Assembly: GCA_902168205.1 (NCBI GenBank)
Contig: CABHOK010000003.1
Span: forward strand, 620,001 to 684,000
Reading direction: 5' to 3'
Source of the DNA: an uncultured Chitinophaga sp.
Lineage (GTDB): Bacteria > Bacteroidota > Bacteroidia > Cytophagales > Cyclobacteriaceae
Length of the DNA stretch: 64,000 bases
Below are positions 1,817-53,244 of the stretch, one piece after another. Under the pieces are notes generated by a model. That model saw nothing but the letters and a program-made list of their open reading frames with translations, had not been told where the DNA came from and ran no database searches. Every line of letters starts with the position of its first letter. The first letter of the stretch is position 1. A program made the position numbers and the translations under genes.

Positions 1817-3010
1817 ATGGTTAAATTCAAAGAATGGGCTGACAAGAATCTGCAGGGTGACAAAGTTATCTGGGCAGTGGTGTTTGCATTGTCGATGATC
1901 AGTGTGCTTGTGGTATATAGTTCCATTGGTACGCTCGCCTATAAACATGCCAAGAGTCCGGAGTATCTGTTGATCAAACATACCATGACGGTGCTGGCTG
2001 GTTTAACTGCGATGTGGTTCGCCCACAAGATTGACTATAGATACTATTCGAAGATTTCCAAGTTTGCCCTGTGGATCAGTATACCGTTGCTGATATATAC
2101 TTTCACCAACGGTGTTACATTGAATGATGCTGCACGCTGGATACAAGTGCCGATCGTAGGATCATTTCAGCCTTCAGACTTTGCGAGTTTAGCGTTGATC
2201 GTGAACCTGGCGAGCATGTTGTCTAAACGCCAGCAGAATATAGATGATATCAAGGAATCATTGATTCCTATATTGTTCTGGTGCGGAATGATCTGCGGAT
2301 TGATCGCACTCACAAACTTGTCTACAGCCGTGTTGTTGCTCATCACGTGTATGTTGATCATGTTCATTGGTCGCGTGCCAACCAAATATTTAGCGATGCT
2401 GGTATTTGTTGGATTACTGTTCGGTGCACTGGCGATCAAGTTTGGTAGTCGCGGTGAGACAGCAAAGAACAGGATCACCAACTTCATCAATGGAACAGAG
2501 CTTCCATTCCAGGCCAAGCACGCGCGCATTGCCGTTGCAACGGGTGGAGTAGTGGGCAAAGGTCCGGGGAACAGCGATCAGCGAAATATACTTCCGCACC
2601 CGTACTCTGACTTTGTATATGCTATCGTGATTGAAGAGTATGGTATGCTGGGAGGTATCGTTGTATTAGCATTATATCTGTTGCTATTGCATCGGGGAAT
2701 GAAAGCGTCCTATAACAGTGAGCGAGCCTTCGGAGGTTTACTCTCGGCAGGGTTGTGTTTCGATCTCGTCTGTCAGGCCATGGTAAATATGGGGGTTGTG
2801 GTAGGGCTCGGGCCAATCACCGGACAACCTTTACCCTTAATATCAATGGGTGGTACATCCATGGTATTTACCGGCTTGTCTATTGGAATTGTATTGAGCG
2901 TGAGCCGCGGTGAACAGGATCGTGCATGGGCTGAGCAGACTGGTGAGGTAAATGAGAAAGACAAAGAAAAAGAACCGAAAAATGTGCCGGCAGCAAAAGC
3001 TGCAGCATAA
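1817..3010 (+). CDS. ftsW: FtsW, septal peptidoglycan glycosyltransferase (SEDS)
   Basis: Polytopic SEDS-family protein, 397 residues with about ten membrane segments, which polymerises lipid II at the septum with a class B PBP. The extracellular loop carries YSDFVYAIVIEEYG, including the conserved acidic residue, and the end of the membrane domain has PLPLISMGGTS. FQPSDFASL matches the family's FQPSE region with Asp in place of Glu. A charged cytoplasmic tail rich in Glu, Lys and Ala follows the last helix. It starts one base after the murD stop. Lying within the dcw cluster supports FtsW over its paralogue RodA. Confidence 0.96.
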   Translation: MVKFKEWADKNLQGDKVIWAVVFALSMISVLVVYSSIGTLAYKHAKSPEYLLIKHTMTVLAGLTAMWFAHKIDYRYYSKISKFALWISIPLLIYTFTNGVTLNDAARWIQVPIVGSFQPSDFASLALIVNLASMLSKRQQNIDDIKESLIPILFWCGMICGLIALTNLSTAVLLLITCMLIMFIGRVPTKYLAMLVFVGLLFGALAIKFGSRGETAKNRITNFINGTELPFQAKHARIAVATGGVVGKGPGNSDQRNILPHPYSDFVYAIVIEEYGMLGGIVVLALYLLLLHRGMKASYNSERAFGGLLSAGLCFDLVCQAMVNMGVVVGLGPITGQPLPLISMGGTSMVFTGLSIGIVLSVSRGEQDRAWAEQTGEVNEKDKEKEPKNVPAAKAAA

Positions 3011-3040
3011 TATATAGTATAGATAGAATAGAAATATAGC

Positions 3041-4156
3041 TTGAAGCAACAGCAACCATATAGATTAATCATTAGCGGAGGCGGTACCGGAGGACACATC
3101 TTCCCGGCCGTAGCGATTGCGAATACTTTTCGCGAGCGTTACCCCGATGCAGATATACTCTTTGTGGGTGCACAAGGCAGAATGGAAATGACACGTGTTC
3201 CGGAGGCGGGCTATAAAATCGTTGGACTTTGGATCAGCGGTTTGCAACGCAAGCTTACGTTGTCCAATCTGTTGTTCCCGATCAAGATGATCGTAAGCTA
3301 TATGAAAGCGCGCGCGATTGTAAAACAGTTCAAGCCGCATGCAGTTATCGGAACGGGTGGTTATGCCAGCGGCCCGATCATGATCGCAGCAACACGTGCT
3401 AATATACCTTCTCTTATACAAGAACAGAACTCATTCGCAGGTCTTGCCAATAAACAAGTAGCGAATAAAGTAAGCAAGGTATGTGTGGCGTATGACGGTA
3501 TGGAAAAGTATTTCCCGAAAGAGAAGATCGTATTTACCGGCAACCCGGTGCGTAAAGATATACTGAGCACAGATACAAAACGTGAGAAGGGAATAAGTCA
3601 CTTCGGTTTCAGCGGCAATGTAAAAACTCTGCTGATCATCGGGGGAAGTCTCGGGGCAAGAACGATCAACGAAAGTATACTCGCAGGTATCGGTAAACTG
3701 GGTGAAGCACAGATACAGGTGATCTGGCAAACCGGTAAAGGATATTTTGAAACTTATAAGAATCGGCTCGGCAGCTATGATACGAAGAAGATCCGCGTTC
3801 AGGATTTTGTTCGCGAGATGGACCTGGCCTATGCTGCTGCTGATGTGGTGATATCACGTTCCGGTGCACTGGCTGTATCCGAACTTTGCATCGCGAAGAA
3901 AGCATGTATACTGGTGCCGTCTCCCAATGTAGCGGAGGACCATCAGACCAAAAATGCAAAAGCATTGGCGGATAAAGATGCAGCGATACTGATTCCGGAT
4001 AAGGATGCAAACACAAGACTGGTAGATGAAGCGCTTCAGCTTTTGTTTGATGATAGCCGTGCTGAAAAACTTCGGGCTAATATTGCAAAACTTGCCAAGC
4101 CGAATGCCACGGAAGATATAATAAATGAAATAGAAAAATTAATAGCGCATACGTAA
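3041..4156 (+). CDS. murG: MurG, lipid II synthase
   Basis: Peripheral membrane glycosyltransferase that adds GlcNAc to lipid I, making lipid II. The N-terminal glycine loop SGGGTGGHIFPA, the second-domain glycine loop GGSLGARTIN and the UDP-GlcNAc region (SRSGALAVSELC) are all present, with the normal length of 371 residues. The best start is a TTG at 3041, immediately before the conserved N-terminal strand; no in-frame ATG gives a full protein. The 30-nt gap after ftsW is the only break in this part of the operon. The stop directly abuts the murC GTG. Confidence 0.97.
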   Translation: MKQQQPYRLIISGGGTGGHIFPAVAIANTFRERYPDADILFVGAQGRMEMTRVPEAGYKIVGLWISGLQRKLTLSNLLFPIKMIVSYMKARAIVKQFKPHAVIGTGGYASGPIMIAATRANIPSLIQEQNSFAGLANKQVANKVSKVCVAYDGMEKYFPKEKIVFTGNPVRKDILSTDTKREKGISHFGFSGNVKTLLIIGGSLGARTINESILAGIGKLGEAQIQVIWQTGKGYFETYKNRLGSYDTKKIRVQDFVREMDLAYAAADVVISRSGALAVSELCIAKKACILVPSPNVAEDHQTKNAKALADKDAAILIPDKDANTRLVDEALQLLFDDSRAEKLRANIAKLAKPNATEDIINEIEKLIAHT

Positions 4157-5551
4157 GTGAAGATCGAACAATACGATAATGTTTTTTTTCTCGGTATAGG
4201 TGGTATCGGCATGAGCGCCCTCGCACGGTGGTTTATGAAGAAAGGCCTGAAGGTTTCCGGCTACGATAAGACATCTACCAAGCTTACAGAAGCGTTGCAG
4301 CAGGAAGGTATGCAGATACACTTTGATGATAAAGTTGAACTGATACCAACCGAAGTGCGCGAACAAAAAGATAAAACGCTGGTAGTATTTACCCCGGCTA
4401 TTCCGAAAGACCACCAGGAGCACGCGTATCTCAAGGAGAAAGGCTATACCATTCTGAAACGCTCGGAAGTTTTAGGCCTGATCACCAAAGGATATAAAAC
4501 CATTGGTGTAGCGGGTACCCATGGCAAAACAACAACGTCATCCATGGTAGCGCACATTTTGAAATCGGCCGGTAGGGATATGGTTGGATTTTTAGGAGGT
4601 ATTACAACCAACTATAATTCGAACCTGGTCATGCAGGGCGATGTAAATCCGGATACACTGGTAGTGGTGGAAGCTGACGAGTTCGATCGTTCGTTCCTGC
4701 GGTTGTTCCCGCAGATCGCGGTGATCACCTCAGCCGATGCAGATCACCTGGATATATATGGTGATCATAACAGTCTGATCACTTCGTTTAAAGACTATAT
4801 CAAACAGATCAACAACGGAGGTTCGTTAATCATTCACGAATCAGTGGCAGAACTGCTGGCCAGTGATGTGAGCCACGTAAGTAAAAGTATATATAGCATG
4901 AGCCGGGGACAATTTTTTGCCGGCAACATTACCGCGATGAGTGGATTTTTTGAGTTCGACCTCCACGGATTTGGCAAGGTCGAGCACGTCAAGCTCGGTG
5001 TCCCTGGTTTTCATAACATTGAAAATGCAATTGCAGCTTCCATAGCAACACACTTGTGTGGTATAGATATAGCAACAATTGTAAAGGCGCTTGAAACATT
5101 TACAGGCGTAAAACGTAGGTTTGAATTTATTGTGAAAGGAAAGAAAGTTATCTATGTGGATGACTACGCACATCATCCGACAGAGATAGAAGCTTTCTTA
5201 CGTTCCATGAAATCGATGTATCCTTCGCGTAAGCTTACGGTTATATTCCAGCCGCACCTGTACTCACGCACGCGTGACTTTGCAGAAGGTTTTTCAAAGA
5301 GCCTGAGCCTGGCGGATGAATTATACCTGATGGATATATACCCGGCACGCGAACTGCCGATACCGGGTGTTGATTCCGATATGATCTTCCAGGATATAAC
5401 AAGTCCGGTGAAGTATCGCTGTAACAAAAGCGACCTGATGGAGAAATTAGGACACAGCGACCTGGATGTTATCGTAACGGTAGGAGCAGGCGATATCGAT
5501 ACATTTATTGAGCCTATAAAGGAATTGGTGCTGAGGAAGTATGAAGTTTAA
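4157..5551 (+). CDS. murC: MurC, UDP-MurNAc:L-Ala ligase
   Basis: First Mur ligase of the stem peptide, adding L-alanine to UDP-MurNAc with ATP. The N-terminal dinucleotide-like fold has GIGGIGMSALA, the P-loop GTHGKTTTS lies near residue 120, and the C-terminal domain carries YVDDYAHHPTEI and FQPHLYSRT. Length 464 is typical. The start is GTG directly after the murG stop. The 3' end overlaps ftsQ by 11 nt, which implies translational coupling. No missing residues were noticed. Confidence 0.97.
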   Translation: MKIEQYDNVFFLGIGGIGMSALARWFMKKGLKVSGYDKTSTKLTEALQQEGMQIHFDDKVELIPTEVREQKDKTLVVFTPAIPKDHQEHAYLKEKGYTILKRSEVLGLITKGYKTIGVAGTHGKTTTSSMVAHILKSAGRDMVGFLGGITTNYNSNLVMQGDVNPDTLVVVEADEFDRSFLRLFPQIAVITSADADHLDIYGDHNSLITSFKDYIKQINNGGSLIIHESVAELLASDVSHVSKSIYSMSRGQFFAGNITAMSGFFEFDLHGFGKVEHVKLGVPGFHNIENAIAASIATHLCGIDIATIVKALETFTGVKRRFEFIVKGKKVIYVDDYAHHPTEIEAFLRSMKSMYPSRKLTVIFQPHLYSRTRDFAEGFSKSLSLADELYLMDIYPARELPIPGVDSDMIFQDITSPVKYRCNKSDLMEKLGHSDLDVIVTVGAGDIDTFIEPIKELVLRKYEV

Positions 5552-6305
5552 GTTTAACCTGAAGCGTGAAGTCAAGATCGGTGCCGCTATACTTATTGTA
5601 CTGGCGATCATTGCTTTTACCGAACGCAGAAGAGGCGAGGTTTCGATAAAGGATATATCGGTAAAGATCGACAACGTTCATGAGAATCATTTCCTGGACG
5701 AAAGCGATGTAATGAAGCTGATGCAGCTGAACCAGGAAAATCTGAAAGGTGCTGAGATCACCACGGTAAACCTGAAAGAAGTTGAGAAGCGTGTAAAAGC
5801 AGAACCCTTTATAAAAGACGCGCAGTTATATAGCGACCTGAAGGGAAATGTAGTAGTGAATGTAGAGTTGCGCAGGCCGGTAGCCCGGATCGTTCGCAAC
5901 GATGGTCCGGACGGATATATAGCAGAGGATGGAAGAGTGATGCCGGTATCCGACAGATTTACGTCACGTGTAGTGCTGATCAGTGGTCCCTATATCCGTC
6001 AACTGCTGAAACAGAAAACTGTAGATGAAACGGAGGAAGGCAAGCAACTGCTGGAATTGATCAAAGCGATACGGGACGATGAGTTCTGGAGTGCACAGAT
6101 CGCTCAATTGGACATAGACAGTAAAGCACGCGTTACCATGTTCTCGCAGGTAGGTGATGAGCGCATCGAGTTCGGTAAACCCGATAACCTCGAAATGAAG
6201 TTCAAAAAGTTGAAGATATTCTATAAAGAAATTCTTCCGCGAATGGGCTGGAACAAATACAAGCGCGTGAACCTGGAGTACGAAGGGCAGATTGTAGCAG
6301 AATAG
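5541..6305 (+). CDS. ftsQ: FtsQ/DivIB, division protein with POTRA domain
   Basis: Bitopic inner-membrane division protein, 254 residues: a short basic cytoplasmic stretch, one membrane helix around residues 12-28, then a periplasmic POTRA-type domain (pattern VKRVKAEPFIKDAQ followed by LRRPVARI) and a C-terminal beta domain. FtsQ normally recruits FtsB/FtsL and the septal synthase complex. Sequence conservation in this family is low, so position between murC and ftsA, length and topology carry most of the weight. The start overlaps the murC end by 11 nt. A 90-nt leader containing a repeated element separates it from ftsA. Confidence 0.9.
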   Translation: MKFKFNLKREVKIGAAILIVLAIIAFTERRRGEVSIKDISVKIDNVHENHFLDESDVMKLMQLNQENLKGAEITTVNLKEVEKRVKAEPFIKDAQLYSDLKGNVVVNVELRRPVARIVRNDGPDGYIAEDGRVMPVSDRFTSRVVLISGPYIRQLLKQKTVDETEEGKQLLELIKAIRDDEFWSAQIAQLDIDSKARVTMFSQVGDERIEFGKPDNLEMKFKKLKIFYKEILPRMGWNKYKRVNLEYEGQIVAE

Positions 6306-6360
6306 AATTGAGACAACAAGACTGGAAACAGTATAGATCCCGAAAGGGAGATTTAAGAAG

Positions 6361-6395
6361 AAAGAAAACAACCACTATAAAAAAAGTTTACAACC
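6361..6395 (+). promoter_or_regulatory. ftsA leader, copy 1 of a duplicated 5' element
   Basis: The 17 bases at 6361-6377 recur exactly at 7776-7792 in front of ftsZ. In both copies the word AAAGTTTA follows and ends exactly 5 nt before the ATG; copy 1 has five more A/T bases between the two blocks. Identical placement relative to two start codons suggests a shared translational or regulatory leader. The function is inferred; the duplication is seen directly. Confidence 0.6.
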
Positions 6396-7715
6396 ATGGG
6401 ACAGGAAAAAATAGTAGTAGGGCTTGACATAGGCACAACCAAGATCTGTGCTATTGTTGGCCGTAAGAATGAATTCGGAAAACTCGAAGTGCTTGGCATG
6501 GGTAAAGCTGAGTCTGAGGGTGTGGTAAAGGGGATCGTTTTCAATATAGATAAGACTGTATATGCCATTGAGAAGGCGATTCGTGATGCCGGTGATCAGG
6601 CAGGGATTGATATAGGTGTGGTAAATGTAGGTATAGCTGGTCAGCACATCCGTTCATTCATACAACATGGTGGTATAACCCGTACTTCCAAGGAAGATGA
6701 AATTACTGTTGCCGATGTAGAACGCCTCACACAGGATATGTATCGCATGGTGGTTCCTCCCGGAAGTCAGATCATTCACGTAATGCCACAAGACTACATG
6801 GTTGATTATGAAGATGGTATTAAAGAACCGGTGGGTATGTCGGGTGTTCGTCTGGAAGCAGACTTCCACATCATTACAGCACAAACCAACGCGATCAATA
6901 ATATAAATAAATGTGTACGCAGAACAGGTCTGGAAATAGACGACCTGATCCTGGAACCACTGGCGTCCAGCCTGGCCGTGTTGAACGATGAGGAGAAAGA
7001 AGCCGGTGTATGTCTCATCGACATCGGTGGTGGTACTACAGATATAGCTATATTCTATGATAACATTATTCGTCACACAGCGGTGATCCCGTTTGGCGGT
7101 AACATTATCACCAATGATATCAAACAGGGATTGATGGTTCTGCCACAACAGGCAGAGCAATTGAAGACGCGCTTCGGAAAAGCTATAGCGGAAGAGGCAA
7201 GTCCAAATGAGATCGTTTCAATTCCGGGTATACGAAACCGTGCAGCCAAGGAGATCTCGGTAAAAAATCTTTCCAACATTATCGAAGCGAGAATGGAAGA
7301 GATTATCGAGATGGCGCATGCAGAGATTATAAGCTCTGGTTTTGAGAACCGGTTGGCTGGCGGAATTGTGATCACGGGTGGAGGTTCGCAGCTTGCAAAC
7401 CTCAAGCAACTGGTAGAGTATATGACCGGTATGGATACACGGATTGGATATCCGAACGAACATCTGGGCAAGAGTAAAATTGAAGCGATAAAGAGTCCTA
7501 TGTATGCTACGGCAGTAGGACTGGTGCTCGCTGGATTCCGGTCCTTGGACGAACGTGAAGACCGATACAAGGAAGCGCGCGAAGTAATAGCAGTGAAGAA
7601 TGCAGCTGCTGTGAAACCGAAGAAGCCCGTGTCATCGAAAAGTTTCTTCAACGACATCTTGAATAAGACCAAGAGTCTGTTGATCGATGATCTTGACGGA
7701 AAGAATGAATATTAA
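6396..7715 (+). CDS. ftsA: FtsA, actin-like division protein
   Basis: Actin-family ATPase that tethers FtsZ filaments to the membrane and recruits late division proteins. The N-terminal phosphate loop GLDIGTTKICAIVG, the second phosphate loop CLIDIGGGTTDIAIF and the adenosine motif VITGGGSQL are all present. Length 439 residues. The SHS2-like 1C domain follows the first motif. A basic C-terminal segment around SKSFFNDILNKTKSLL is a good candidate for the membrane-targeting amphipathic helix, followed by about ten more residues. It lies between ftsQ and ftsZ, as is standard. A leader shared with ftsZ precedes it. Confidence 0.97.
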   Translation: MGQEKIVVGLDIGTTKICAIVGRKNEFGKLEVLGMGKAESEGVVKGIVFNIDKTVYAIEKAIRDAGDQAGIDIGVVNVGIAGQHIRSFIQHGGITRTSKEDEITVADVERLTQDMYRMVVPPGSQIIHVMPQDYMVDYEDGIKEPVGMSGVRLEADFHIITAQTNAINNINKCVRRTGLEIDDLILEPLASSLAVLNDEEKEAGVCLIDIGGGTTDIAIFYDNIIRHTAVIPFGGNIITNDIKQGLMVLPQQAEQLKTRFGKAIAEEASPNEIVSIPGIRNRAAKEISVKNLSNIIEARMEEIIEMAHAEIISSGFENRLAGGIVITGGGSQLANLKQLVEYMTGMDTRIGYPNEHLGKSKIEAIKSPMYATAVGLVLAGFRSLDEREDRYKEAREVIAVKNAAAVKPKKPVSSKSFFNDILNKTKSLLIDDLDGKNEY

Positions 7716-48681: not shown

Positions 48682-48802
48682 GCAAGTCGGCCTGTCCAAT
48701 CGGCCTTTTTCATTTTACCATACTTGCTGTTTTTCCTTGAGCGGTTTGATCTTGCCGCAAAAACATATTTTATTGCCTGTAGTACCAAAACCTGAATTAT
48801 AC

Positions 48803-50479
48803 ATGAAGAACTGCTCTTCTGGCAGAGTATATCTGCTATTAAGTTTGCTATTCGTGCCCCTGTTGCTTCGTGCACAGGACGAACGCGAGCTCCCACCGGT
48901 TACACGAACGTATGCGTTTACCAACGTAAATATTATACAAGCCCCCGGCAGAAAAATTGATATGGCCACGCTTGTCATCAAAGACGGTTTGATCAAAGCT
49001 GTTGGAAAGAATATACCTATACCTGCCGAAGCTATCATTATCAAATCCGATAGTTTATATGTATATGCCGGATTCATCGATGGCTTGTCGCGCACCGGTG
49101 TTGTAAAGCCACGCGAAGAAAACCGAGATCGCGTAAAAGATCCCGGTAATCCTCCGGATGATCGTGCAGGCATTACACCACAGATCGATGTGCGTAACTA
49201 TATAAATCCTTCCGAGAAAGCGATTGAAGAATTACGCACCATCGGTTTTACAACAGCGCATGTTGTACCATACGGAGGTATGCTTCCCGGAAGCGGTGCT
49301 ATCGTGGAGCTTGCCGGTAAATCGGCTGATGATATGGTACTGTTGTCTCAATCATCATTATACTCAGAACTCACACCGGCCGAGCGCGTGTACCCGGCAA
49401 CTACCATGGCCGTAATTGCCAAGTGGCGCGAACTATATCGACAAGCGTCTCAACAGAAAACTTATGCATCGGTATATGCATCGAACCGCGCAGGTATAGA
49501 ACGTCCTGGTTCCAGTCGTTTGCTTGAGTCGTTTTACCCGGTAATTGATAAACGTATACCGGTGTTGTTCAAAGCCGAGAAAGTATGGGATATACACCGC
49601 ATTCTTACACTGCAGAAAGATTTAGGATTCCCGCTCATCATTGGTGATGTAAAGGAAGGATGGGATGTTACCGGTAAACTTAAAACATCCGGAGCAAAAG
49701 TTTTTCTGAGTCTCGATTTACCGGAAGAGAAAAAAGAGGAGAAGAAAGATGATAAAAAAGATGTTCCTAAATCCATGACCGATGCCGAGAAAGAGGCACT
49801 CGATAAACGCAAAGCAGAGTTTGCTGCAAAGTATGTAGGACAGGCACTAACCTTTCAGCAGGCCGGTATACCTTTCGGGTTCTCAACCCTGTCAGTTAAA
49901 ACAAAAGATATACAGGCGAACCTGCGCAGAATGATAAAGGCAGGTTTAACGGAAGATCAGGCACTCGCTGCATTAACAACAACACCCGCGCAGTTATTAG
50001 GATTGAGCGATCGATTAGGTTCTGTTGATGCTGGTAAGATCGCAAACCTCGTTATCAGCCGTAAGCCATACTTCGATGAGAAATCAAAAGTCAAGTATGT
50101 ATTTGTAGAAGGTATACTTTATAAGAATGAAACGCCTGAGCCAAAGAAAGATGCTAAGGTTGTAATAGAAGGTGAATGGGACATTACTTCGGAAACACCG
50201 CAGGGTAAAAGTGAATCGGTTATCACGATCAAAAAAGAAGGTGATAAATATACCGGTAAAATTTCGGGTAACCGTTTTCCGCAGGCCATCACCTTTGATG
50301 AGATCTCACTCGATGGTAACAAGCTGAAGTTTGTATTTACCATGACCGAAGGTGGTAACGCGTTTAAAATTACAGTAGATGCTGTCGTGGAAGGAACCAC
50401 CTTTAAAGGCAACGCTACCTTTGGACAGAACGAAAAGTTACCGGTAGAAGGGAAGAAGAAACCCCAGCTTAAAAATTAA
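48803..50479 (+). CDS. Secreted amidohydrolase-like protein 1, metal site degenerate
   Basis: 558 residues from ATG 48803, with a signal peptide ending LLLRAQ. The amidohydrolase beta-barrel frame is visible (NVNIIQAPGRKIDMATLVIKDG, then LGLSDRLGSVDAGKIANLVI near the end), but the HxH metal motif that should follow the first strand reads AGFIDGLSRTG with no histidines. A Lys/Glu-rich insert lies near 300-330, and a roughly 110-residue C-terminal beta domain (VIEGEWDITSETPQG onward) is extra. It is therefore a probable pseudoenzyme. First of three tandem paralogues, 13 nt before the next. Confidence 0.85.
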   Translation: MKNCSSGRVYLLLSLLFVPLLLRAQDERELPPVTRTYAFTNVNIIQAPGRKIDMATLVIKDGLIKAVGKNIPIPAEAIIIKSDSLYVYAGFIDGLSRTGVVKPREENRDRVKDPGNPPDDRAGITPQIDVRNYINPSEKAIEELRTIGFTTAHVVPYGGMLPGSGAIVELAGKSADDMVLLSQSSLYSELTPAERVYPATTMAVIAKWRELYRQASQQKTYASVYASNRAGIERPGSSRLLESFYPVIDKRIPVLFKAEKVWDIHRILTLQKDLGFPLIIGDVKEGWDVTGKLKTSGAKVFLSLDLPEEKKEEKKDDKKDVPKSMTDAEKEALDKRKAEFAAKYVGQALTFQQAGIPFGFSTLSVKTKDIQANLRRMIKAGLTEDQALAALTTTPAQLLGLSDRLGSVDAGKIANLVISRKPYFDEKSKVKYVFVEGILYKNETPEPKKDAKVVIEGEWDITSETPQGKSESVITIKKEGDKYTGKISGNRFPQAITFDEISLDGNKLKFVFTMTEGGNAFKITVDAVVEGTTFKGNATFGQNEKLPVEGKKKPQLKN

Positions 50480-50492
50480 TATACCAGCAAGA

Positions 50493-51857
50493 ATGAAAAA
50501 GATACTGTTAATTATAATGCTGGCTGTACAGGTTACACTGGCACAGGAAAGAGGAAATATACTGATCAAGAATGCAACGGTGCTCACCATAACAAAAGGC
50601 ACGCTGCAGAATACAGATGTACTTGTAAAGGATGGTAAGATCAGTCAGTTGGGGAAAAATATAGCAGCACCTGCCGGCTATAAAGTTATTGATGCAACGG
50701 GCTTGTTTGTAATGCCGGGTATCATTGATGCACACTCGCACCAGGGTATAGATGATATTAACGAAGCTACCAACCCGGTAACAGCGGAAGTCTTTGTAGG
50801 AGACGTGATCAATCCATCTGAGATATCACTGTATAGAGCATTGGCCGGTGGCGTTACAACGATACATGCCATGCACGGTTCTGCCAATGCTATAGGAGGC
50901 CAATGCGAAACGATAAAGCTCCGCTATGGAGTCAAAGATCCGGAAGGACTACGCATGGAGGGCGCACCTCGTACGATCAAATTTGCATTGGGTGAAAACC
51001 CGACACGCGTGCATGGTGGAGGTAATAACATTGTGCCGCGTACACGCATGGGCGTTGAGTTTGTGATGCGCGAAGCATTTTCGAAAGCAAAGGAATACAC
51101 CGCGGCATGGGACAGCTATACGAAATCAAAATCACAAAAAGGATTTCGTGGTGCACCGCCTGCCTATAATTATAGACTTGAGACATTGGGCGAGATCCTG
51201 AAAGGAAACATCATCATTCACTGCCACAGCTATCGCGCCGATGAAATCTATATGATGTTGAAAGTGTGCAAGGATTTCGGAATCAATAAAATTGTATTCC
51301 AGCACGTGAATGAAGGATTTAAAGTTGCGCCTGAGCTTGCAGCACAAGGTGCTATGGCATCTGTGTTTTCTGACTGGTGGTCGTATAAATTTGAAGTATA
51401 CTATTCAACGGCCTACAATGCTGCTATACTTACAAAGAACGGAGTAACAACATCGATCAATTCCGATGATGGCGAGTTGATGAGGCACCTGTACCACGAA
51501 GCTGCCAAAACACAGAAGTACGGTGCATTAACCGATGATGAAGCATTGGCGCTGATCACCATCAATCCTGCTAAACAACTTGGTATTGAAAGTCGTGTCG
51601 GCTCGATCGAAGTGGGTAAAGATGCAGATATAGCCATCTTTAAAAGTCACCCATTGTCCAGTTATACTATACCGATGGTATCCATTGTAGATGGTATCGT
51701 ACGATTTGATCGCGAGAAAGATCAGGACGACATGCGCCTCTATGTAGATCCGAAGCAGGAGATTGAGATCGCTACGTTTGAAGATCGCGATCACGAACAT
51801 GAAAGCTGCATGGAAGGAACATTCTCCGAGTTTGAAACAATCTTTAATGTTAACTAA
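50493..51857 (+). CDS. Secreted amidohydrolase 2, intact metal site
   Basis: 454 residues with signal peptide MKKILLIIMLAVQVTLAQ. Here the metal ligands are complete: GIIDAHSHQGI (HxH), NIIIHCHSYRADE, KIVFQHVNEGF and SINSDDGELMRH (the catalytic Asp), in an imidazolonepropionase-like amidohydrolase fold that ends SRVGSIEVGKDADIAIF. It should hydrolyse an amide or cyclic C-N bond in the periplasm; the substrate is not deducible. It is the only one of three tandem paralogues with a full site, so it may be the active subunit. A 10-nt gap separates it from the third gene. Confidence 0.9.
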   Translation: MKKILLIIMLAVQVTLAQERGNILIKNATVLTITKGTLQNTDVLVKDGKISQLGKNIAAPAGYKVIDATGLFVMPGIIDAHSHQGIDDINEATNPVTAEVFVGDVINPSEISLYRALAGGVTTIHAMHGSANAIGGQCETIKLRYGVKDPEGLRMEGAPRTIKFALGENPTRVHGGGNNIVPRTRMGVEFVMREAFSKAKEYTAAWDSYTKSKSQKGFRGAPPAYNYRLETLGEILKGNIIIHCHSYRADEIYMMLKVCKDFGINKIVFQHVNEGFKVAPELAAQGAMASVFSDWWSYKFEVYYSTAYNAAILTKNGVTTSINSDDGELMRHLYHEAAKTQKYGALTDDEALALITINPAKQLGIESRVGSIEVGKDADIAIFKSHPLSSYTIPMVSIVDGIVRFDREKDQDDMRLYVDPKQEIEIATFEDRDHEHESCMEGTFSEFETIFNVN

Positions 51858-51867
51858 GCACACGATT

Positions 51868-53181
51868 ATGAAACGAAAAATACATTTATACTTCAGTATA
51901 CTCGTTATACTTTTCTGTGCTGCAACGTCAGTGCTATGGGCACAGTCACCGAAGGCCGTGTTCGGAACCTTTGCTCTTACCAATGCTACCATTGAGACTG
52001 TAACGAAAGGCGTTATTCAAAACGGAACGGTTATTATCACTAATGGAAAAATTGCAGCCGTTGGTACATCGGTAACCGTACCGGCCGGTGCACAGGTTAT
52101 AGATTGTAAAGGTCTCTGGATATACCCGGGTATGATTGATAGCTTCACACAACTTGGATTGAGCGAAGTAGCATCGGATGCACGCACGCGTGATTTTGAA
52201 GAAGTAGGTGATATCATCCCGCAGGTACATGCTATTACTGCGGTGAATCCGAACTCTGCATTGATTCCGGTAACACGCATCAGCGGAGTAACAACGGTTA
52301 TTGCTGCTCCGCGCGGCAGCCTTGTATCAGGTACTGCTGCTCTGATTGATCTTCATGGTTATACACCGGATCAAATGTTTGCCGGGTTTGAAGGTGTCGT
52401 ATTACAATTCCCGGATGTAGGAAGAAGAAGTTTCTTCGATCGCAGAACGGATGACGAATTGAAGAAAGACTACGAAAAGAAATTGAACAAACTGAACGAA
52501 GCCTGGGACAGAGCAATCGAATATCACAAGATTGACTCAGCTTCAAAATCAAAAGGTATAGCATACTATCCAGAAATGGAGGCGTTGCTTCCGGTAATTC
52601 GTGGTGAACGTGCACTGATGATACAGGCTGATGCTGCGAAGGATATACTCAATGCATTGCAGTGGGTAAAAGAAAGAAAGGTCAAGAAAGTTATACTGGT
52701 GGGAGTATTGGAAGGCTGGCGTGTAGCGGCTGAAATCGCGAAAGCAAACATCCCGGTGATTACAGGTCCTATACAGGAATTGCCTTCACGTGACTACGAT
52801 CGTTATGATAAAGCGTATGCCAATGCCGGTCTGATGAAGAAGGCCGGAGTAAAGGTAGCGCTCTGTACACAGGAAGCCCGCGGTAACGTACGTAACCTTC
52901 CGTATCACGCAGCCTTTGCAGCGAGCTATGGCCTCGGGCGCGAAGAAGCATTGAAAGCAGTGACCATCGTGCCTGCAGAAATTTTTGGTGTCGCTGATCG
53001 CATCGGTTCAATCGAGGCTGGTAAAGATGCAACCTTGTTTATCAGCGATGGCGATCCATTTGAGACAAAGACAAACATTAAGCAGGTGTTTATTGATGGC
53101 TGGAAAATTCCGATGGTGAGCAGACAAACCGAGCTATACGAAGAGTTCCTGAAGCGCGAACCCGGTGTGAGTAAAAACTAA
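51868..53181 (+). CDS. Secreted amidohydrolase-like protein 3, metal site degenerate
   Basis: 437 residues from ATG 51868, with signal peptide MKRKIHLYFSILVILFCAAT up to about residue 25. The fold words are present (GLWIYPGMIDSFTQLGL, and ADRIGSIEAGKDATLFIS near the end), but the HxH motif is replaced by DSFTQ and the later His ligand positions are not obvious (ALMIQADAAKD where IHCHSY occurs in protein 2). A probable pseudoenzyme like protein 1. It ends the three-gene operon at a terminator. Confidence 0.85.
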   Translation: MKRKIHLYFSILVILFCAATSVLWAQSPKAVFGTFALTNATIETVTKGVIQNGTVIITNGKIAAVGTSVTVPAGAQVIDCKGLWIYPGMIDSFTQLGLSEVASDARTRDFEEVGDIIPQVHAITAVNPNSALIPVTRISGVTTVIAAPRGSLVSGTAALIDLHGYTPDQMFAGFEGVVLQFPDVGRRSFFDRRTDDELKKDYEKKLNKLNEAWDRAIEYHKIDSASKSKGIAYYPEMEALLPVIRGERALMIQADAAKDILNALQWVKERKVKKVILVGVLEGWRVAAEIAKANIPVITGPIQELPSRDYDRYDKAYANAGLMKKAGVKVALCTQEARGNVRNLPYHAAFAASYGLGREEALKAVTIVPAEIFGVADRIGSIEAGKDATLFISDGDPFETKTNIKQVFIDGWKIPMVSRQTELYEEFLKREPGVSKN

Positions 53182-53209
53182 CGTAAACTCAAAATAAATA
53201 GCATTGCAG

Positions 53210-53244
53210 AGGCCGTCCTGATTTTTCAGGGCGGCTTCTTTTTT
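53210..53244 (+). terminator. Terminator of amidohydrolase operon
   Basis: GCCGTCCTGA (53212-53221) pairs with TCAGGGCGGC (53226-53235) with one G-T pair, followed by a T-rich tract. Confidence 0.9.

Follow-up and report, generated by a model that had tools for sequence, protein, structure and literature searches.

In a 64,000-nt stretch of DNA from an uncultured Chitinophaga sp. of the Bacteroidota (assembly GCA_902168205.1, contig CABHOK010000003.1, forward-strand positions 620,001 to 684,000; the whole stretch is termed the window), three co-directional open reading frames (ORFs) encode amidohydrolase paralogues that we call P1, P2 and P3 (Table 1). Because these genes are kept together across many phyla and are sometimes fused, they probably encode one multi-part enzyme. 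The trio was first noticed in a reading of the sequence alone as a tandem of amidohydrolases 10-13 nt apart, and this description is confirmed by the ORFs, with gaps of 13 nt between P1 and P2 and 10 nt between P2 and P3, by the Pfam scores and by the matches to the Protein Data Bank (PDB) entry 3ooq. Against Amidohydro_1 (PF01979) P1, P2 and P3 score 39.6, 71.1 and 49.2 bits, all above the cut-off of 25, and 3ooq is the best PDB sequence match for each (E values of 5.6e-21, 4.2e-63 and 8.5e-37). Profile-profile alignment matches P1 and P3 to P2 across the whole amidohydrolase part and also aligns P1 and P3 with each other. Fold likeness to 3ooq was seen with VIA-align for the P2 and P3 halves of homologues, in lists filled by P2 and P3 domains. 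The trio thus belongs to the 3ooq-like amidohydrolases by sequence for all three proteins and by fold for the P2 and P3 halves of homologues.

Among the best 25 of 33, 77 and 61 NCBIfam family matches, none of the named enzymes (hutI, nagA, dihydroorotase, D-hydantoinase, Xaa-Pro dipeptidase and others) reached its cut-off for any of the trio proteins, scores lying far under the curated values (e.g., 87.6 vs. 391). Since the libraries searched give only generic amidohydrolase matches, an automatic reading would be three separate enzymes. Putative signal stretches ending in AQ were seen by eye at the N-termini of P1, P2 and P3, and suggest secretion; a crude signal-peptide count was uninformative, since it missed the P1 of the window and passed 304 of 923 control ORFs.

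Table 1. Features of the P1-P2-P3 locus in window coordinates
Feature	Position	Strand	Description
P1	48803..50479	+	558 aa; amidohydrolase paralogue, signal-like N-terminus, C-terminal beta domain; predicted non-catalytic subunit
P1 Lys/Glu/Asp-rich insert	49715..49828	+	not general among relatives
P1 C-terminal beta domain	50150..50476 (limits approximate)	+	no Pfam match; strands 435-523 in the model of a fused homologue
P2	50493..51857	+	454 aa; amidohydrolase, signal-like N-terminus, complete metal site; predicted catalytic subunit
P2 HxH (H81, H83)	50733..50741	+	ligand alignment
P2 E168	50994..50996	+	Glu in 195/196 P2 rows, gap in the remaining row
P2 H245, beta5 ligand	51225..51227	+	ligand alignment
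P2 H271, beta6 ligand	51303..51305	+	ligand alignment
P2 D325, beta8 ligand	51465..51467	+	ligand alignment
P3	51868..53181	+	437 aa; amidohydrolase paralogue, signal-like N-terminus; predicted non-catalytic subunit
Terminator-like hairpin	53208..53239	+	14 pairs, T tail; 3' of P3

Metal ligands in the three proteins

Catalytic metal-dependent amidohydrolases carry an HxH motif, a beta5 histidine, a beta6 histidine and a beta8 aspartate. P2 has this pattern, with the motifs DAHSHQG, HCHSY, FQHV and NSDDGE, and is predicted from it to be catalytic; P1 and P3 lack it at the ligand positions. The motif equivalent to DAHSHQG reads IDGLSRTG in P1 and IDSFTQLG in P3 (all six motifs were found as the sequence-only reading had quoted them), and the ligand places are taken by L95, R97, K257/A258, D282 and T362 in P1 and by F93, Q95, Q253, G279 and Q335 (counted from Met) in P3.

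The first 31 relatives kept the P2 motifs in 31/31 cases, and HxH was found in 0/30 P1 and 0/31 P3. A larger ligand census took the pooled loci minus the two-gene loci L146-L159 described below, dropping matches under 100 bits or under 200 profile positions; each set includes two exact repeats, and further near repeats are possible. All five ligands are present in 194 of 196 P2 domains, the two exceptions being a row with N in the last position, and locus L139, where HxH was lost to domain cutting and the ORF has DCHSH. The 189 P1 rows hold none of the five ligands in 156 cases, one in 28 and two in 5, and the 184 P3 rows none in 121, one in 53 and two in 10, never more in either protein. HxH occurs near its expected place in a single P1 (L232) and in no P3. 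The count carries the earlier claim that only the middle protein has a complete metal site beyond this genome. On sequence grounds E168 of P2 is a candidate for a further ligand or catalytic residue, and H128, for which a role may be supposed, is as constant as the ligands (195/196 rows, the remaining row being a gap). Two P2 cysteines, C244 (51222-51224, adjoining the ligand H245) and C439 (51807-51809, in the C-terminal tail), are each present in about three quarters of relatives and are associated, both together in 130, neither in 33 and a single one in 18 and 15; a C244-C439 disulphide was set aside, because many sequences have a single cysteine and the rows are related.

P1 and/or P3 might instead be active hydrolases, working through another metal site or without metal. 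Loss of the site is indeed uneven in P3, since the beta5 histidine is retained in 40 of its 184 rows, and this together with the few two-ligand rows and the purifying selection on both proteins (see below) would suit such an activity. However, no row exceeds two of the five ligands, so that alternative complete ligands, which would have told against the earlier claim, are absent from the ligand positions of P1 and P3. The beta6 histidine is replaced by glycine in 171/184 P3 and 132/189 P1 rows, cysteine exceeds 40% in no column of P1 or P3, and seven of the ten former ligand positions of the two proteins rank in the lower half of their own protein by conservation. Four of the five positions in P3 fall in its lowest 28% and three of the five in P1 under its median, the positions that escape low conservation being beta8 of P1 and beta6, where both proteins mostly have Gly. 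We regard a hydrolytic P1 or P3 as very improbable.

Co-inheritance and selection

P1 and P3 are inherited together with P2. A first search of 39 genomes, the Chitinophaga genome included, found P2 at an E value of 1e-100 or better in 31, the other eight having only weak general amidohydrolase matches. P3 was present in 31/31 P2 genomes, three times away from P2, and P1 in 30, the P2 of the remaining genome lying on a 3-kb contig. Seven of the eight genomes without P2 have neither P1 nor P3 above the general cross-hit level. All three genes are missing from another genome of this genus (G006, 99% complete), within which the trio is therefore dispensable.

This pattern was reproduced in 247 Bacteroidota genomes with cut-offs of our own choosing (E values of 1e-120 for P2, 1e-80 for P3 and 1e-50 for P1), which gave P2 in 131, P1 in 132 and P3 in 130. 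The P3 set equals the P2 set minus one genome, and that apparent exception was dismissed because its stretch reads N; the P1 set equals the P2 set plus one weak P1-profile match without P2, and P3 without P2 was found in 0 of the 247. Both P1 and P3 are thus present in all 130 scorable P2-bearing genomes, even where P3 is unlinked. Fisher's p for co-occurrence, 1.6e-71, is overstated because the genomes are related. When P3 was sought in 21 genomes without a whole P3 beside P2, it was found elsewhere in 19, adjacent and running off the contig in one, and one was unscorable. Eleven more Bacteroidota genomes gave weaker P2 matches only (1e-63 to 1e-77), and the six inspected are of the two-gene type.

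The trio reaches well beyond this phylum. The best 80 of 574 confirmed P2 stretches in a scan of named genomes carry record titles from Bacteroidota groups, Balneola, Rhodothermales, Acidobacteriota groups, Gemmatimonadetes, Ignavibacteria, Eisenbacteria, Armatimonadetes, an Actinomycetota metagenome-assembled genome and Idiomarina. P1, whole or cut, adjoins P2 in 78 of these 80 loci, the P2 of the other two lying at contig ends, and P3 likewise adjoins P2 in 78, the remaining two having P3 elsewhere in one genome and a P3 fragment on another contig in the second. A sample of 119 genomes centred on Acidobacteriota gave P2-profile matches in 55, and canonical P2 (E value of 1e-150 or better) is accompanied by P1 and P3 in 38/38. 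Loss of P1 and P3 from relatives that keep P2, which had been named as grounds for rejecting a partnership, was thus not seen among canonical P2 genomes here nor in the scorable Bacteroidota. Twelve genomes with P2 between 1e-100 and 1e-150 have P3 in 12/12 and lack P1 in ten, and five with weaker P2 have P3 at the cut-off in three. P1-profile matches in six genomes of this sample coincide with P3 and were set aside.

Purifying selection acts on both P1 and P3. Against the nearest relative, where synonymous divergence (dS) is near 0.8, the ratio of non-synonymous to synonymous substitution (dN/dS) is 0.040 for P1, 0.018 for P2 and 0.024 for P3, and wherever dS is computable the ratios of P1 and P3 range from 0.024 to 0.075, dS exceeding 1 except for that relative. 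A reading of P1 and P3 as decaying duplicates without a role could draw on their mean conservation of 0.43 and 0.53, below the 0.63 of P2, but these ratios, together with unbroken co-occurrence in 130/130 scorable genomes and retention in several phyla, refute it and leave it practically no credence.

Gene fusions, descent and surroundings

Fusions between the genes argue for a physical or functional association. P1 and P2 form a single ORF in 82 of 199 loci tallied, three separate genes being found in 104, and this is the commonest type of fusion; 79 of the 82 ORFs measure 981-1142 aa, and of the other three one enters a stretch of N and two are cut or broken. P2 and P3 are fused in L125, L127, L131, L134, L139 and L265, with P1 placed after the fusion in L125, L131 and L139 and a frame break inside the P3 of L134, and in L262 all three proteins form one ORF of 1377 aa (2719-6852, minus strand). 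The fusion partner and the gene order therefore vary across lineages and the gene set is constant. The AlphaFold2 model of a natural P1-P2 fusion, with a predicted template modelling score (pTM) of 0.75, lends modest support to the pairing, and support is lacking for P2-P3. One locus, L254 (3173-10870), has five tandem ORFs with six related amidohydrolase domains, a P2+P3-type fusion among them.

P1 and P3 may nevertheless act alone in the same pathway as P2 rather than as its subunits, for instance as secreted proteins that bind its substrate or product, with the operon serving co-expression. This main rival would be favoured by the 19 of 21 genomes, picked for lacking a whole P3 beside P2, that encode P3 away from it, by the two-gene versions without P1, and by P3 itself, in which its own charged residues E99, D108, E111, R136 and R341 (numbered from the residue after Met) are near-invariant and the former ligand places drift in four cases out of five, as would fit a new binding site. 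However, contact explains the P1-P2, P2-P3 and triple fusions more easily than separate binding proteins do, and co-occurrence persists without linkage. We consider separate binding proteins unlikely, at well under an even chance.

In phylogenetic trees P1, P2 and P3 each form one clade, with values of 99-100 in the Shimodaira-Hasegawa-like approximate likelihood ratio test (SH-aLRT) in the first tree and bootstrap 100 and SH-aLRT 98-100 in the second. The second tree splits the active rows (P2 and two-gene P2) from all inactive rows (100/99) and leaves the exact branching of P1 among the latter unsettled; the first places P1 beside P3 with a support of 99. The Idiomarina trio takes matching places in the P1, P2 and P3 subtrees of the first tree, as though the three genes had moved together. 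In two-gene loci of Bacteroidota (L146-L159) an active-type and an inactive-type gene are adjacent in 14/14 fetched, the active-type member keeping HxH, H, H and D, with Thr in place of E168 and either Pro or Ser in place of H128, and further two-gene loci occur in the Acidobacteriota-centred sample (L250-L253, L257-L261). These two-gene loci, the pairing of P1 with P3 and the active/inactive split fit a single early loss of the metal site, after which the inactive copy was itself duplicated.

The sequence-only reading had also taken the extra beta domain and the charged insert of P1 as support for a structural role, and this did not hold up. Among 189 relatives the beta domain is present in 156, not found in 32 (owing to a broken frame in at least L042) and unclear in one, and K/E/D residues make up at least 40% of the insert stretch in 67/189 rows, the window included, with a median of 31%. 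Since the domain was not found in 32/189 and the insert is not general, the partnership requires neither. In P1-P2 fusions such as L132 the beta domain sits between the two amidohydrolase halves.

Around the locus, eight terminator-like sites were counted in the region vs. a mean of 4.1 in shuffles, the hairpin 3' of P3 having the most pairs. Long antisense ORFs on the minus strand across the trio (48715-49173 and 51528-51992) are putative by-products of codon usage, and the largest cluster of flanking ORFs (117/164 loci) is antisense overlap with the trio, judging from the cluster representative. A function was also sought from neighbouring genes, of which the commonest real family occurs in just 21/164 loci.

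The proposed assembly and known systems

Taken together, we consider it likely that the trio forms one hetero-oligomeric secreted amidohydrolase, in which P2 is the catalytic subunit and the other two are pseudoenzymes, so that the complex with inactive paralogues suggested by the first reading gains support from co-occurrence and fusions. P2 would bind the metal and be the sole catalytic subunit of a periplasmic or surface enzyme, its target being most likely a small amide or a C-N bond of similar kind, since the related folds are those of amidohydrolases, dipeptidases and deaminases. P1 and P3, derived from a catalytic copy, would be in direct contact with P2 and occupy the places of identical copies in a putative ancestral 3ooq-like homo-oligomer. 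They may stabilise P2, shape or gate the mouth of its active site, or present the substrate, in a structural or regulatory role. The order of events would run from a lone active enzyme to an active and inactive pair, then, once the inactive copy had been duplicated in turn, to the trio, and finally to repeated fusions. We lean, by a narrower balance, towards the broader proposal that this is a widespread secreted class, an obligate heteromer of one catalytic subunit with two distinct pseudo-amidohydrolases, that grew stepwise and was then locked together by P1-P2, P2-P3 or triple fusions in different lineages.

Several observations weigh against this picture. P3 is unlinked from P2 in several lineages, which argues against strictly operon-coupled assembly, and the ten genomes with distant P2 and no P1 make P1 dispensable in the wider family. 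Two weak-P2 genomes (G344, G402) have no P3 match at the cut-off used, another of the Acidobacteriota-centred sample (G367) has P1 and no P2, and one of the first search (G035, 88% complete) has P3 and neither P1 nor P2, the last two of which may be assembly gaps. The P2-P3 fusion model reaches a pTM of 0.51, and hence its domain arrangement is not predicted. A relaxation of constraint shared by P1 and P3 may also partly produce the active/inactive split in the trees.

The evidence points to two of the three proteins being pseudoenzymes and to the whole set as the functional unit, in a large system found in roughly half (131/247) of the Bacteroidota genomes sampled and in other phyla. As two-gene, three-gene and variously fused lineages are all living today, how dependence on dead subunits evolves can be tested directly, and an obligate heteromer would offer a natural series on how inactive copies become indispensable subunits. 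The 1377-aa triple fusion of L262 is an attractive natural target for structure determination.

Partnerships of an enzyme with a pseudoenzyme are a known kind of system, and a limited search of the open-access literature found no account of this trio. The closest structure, 3ooq of Thermotoga maritima, is a single chain of 396 residues with no room for the beta domain of P1; for this entry or for TM0814, presumably its gene number, no paper was found in the open-access literature. The two-gene relatives have an active and an inactive amidohydrolase adjacent as in the trio, and P1 is absent. In the ATCase-pDHO of Pseudomonas aeruginosa the active partner is a transcarbamoylase, unrelated to pDHO. 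Its inactive dihydroorotase-like chain is necessary for the activity of the partner, according to PMC7053772, whereas the trio joins its active member to two distinct inactive ones, all of them paralogues in one family. The collapsin response mediator proteins (CRMPs) of animals, also called dihydropyrimidinase-related proteins, are Amidohydro_1 proteins that have lost metal ligands, kept the fold and form homo- and hetero-tetramers (PMC4051505). They resemble P1 and P3 as inactive amidohydrolases with a retained fold, but are described as cytosolic phosphoproteins in PMC4051505, whereas the trio is predicted to be secreted. They are also not the closest in sequence: 3ooq matches at full length and the listed CRMP entries of the PDB over only about 40-60 N-terminal residues, which places the trio outside the CRMP family. 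CRMPs are a precedent for heterotetramers built of inactive amidohydrolases, and pDHO for an inactive amidohydrolase on which the activity of its partner depends.

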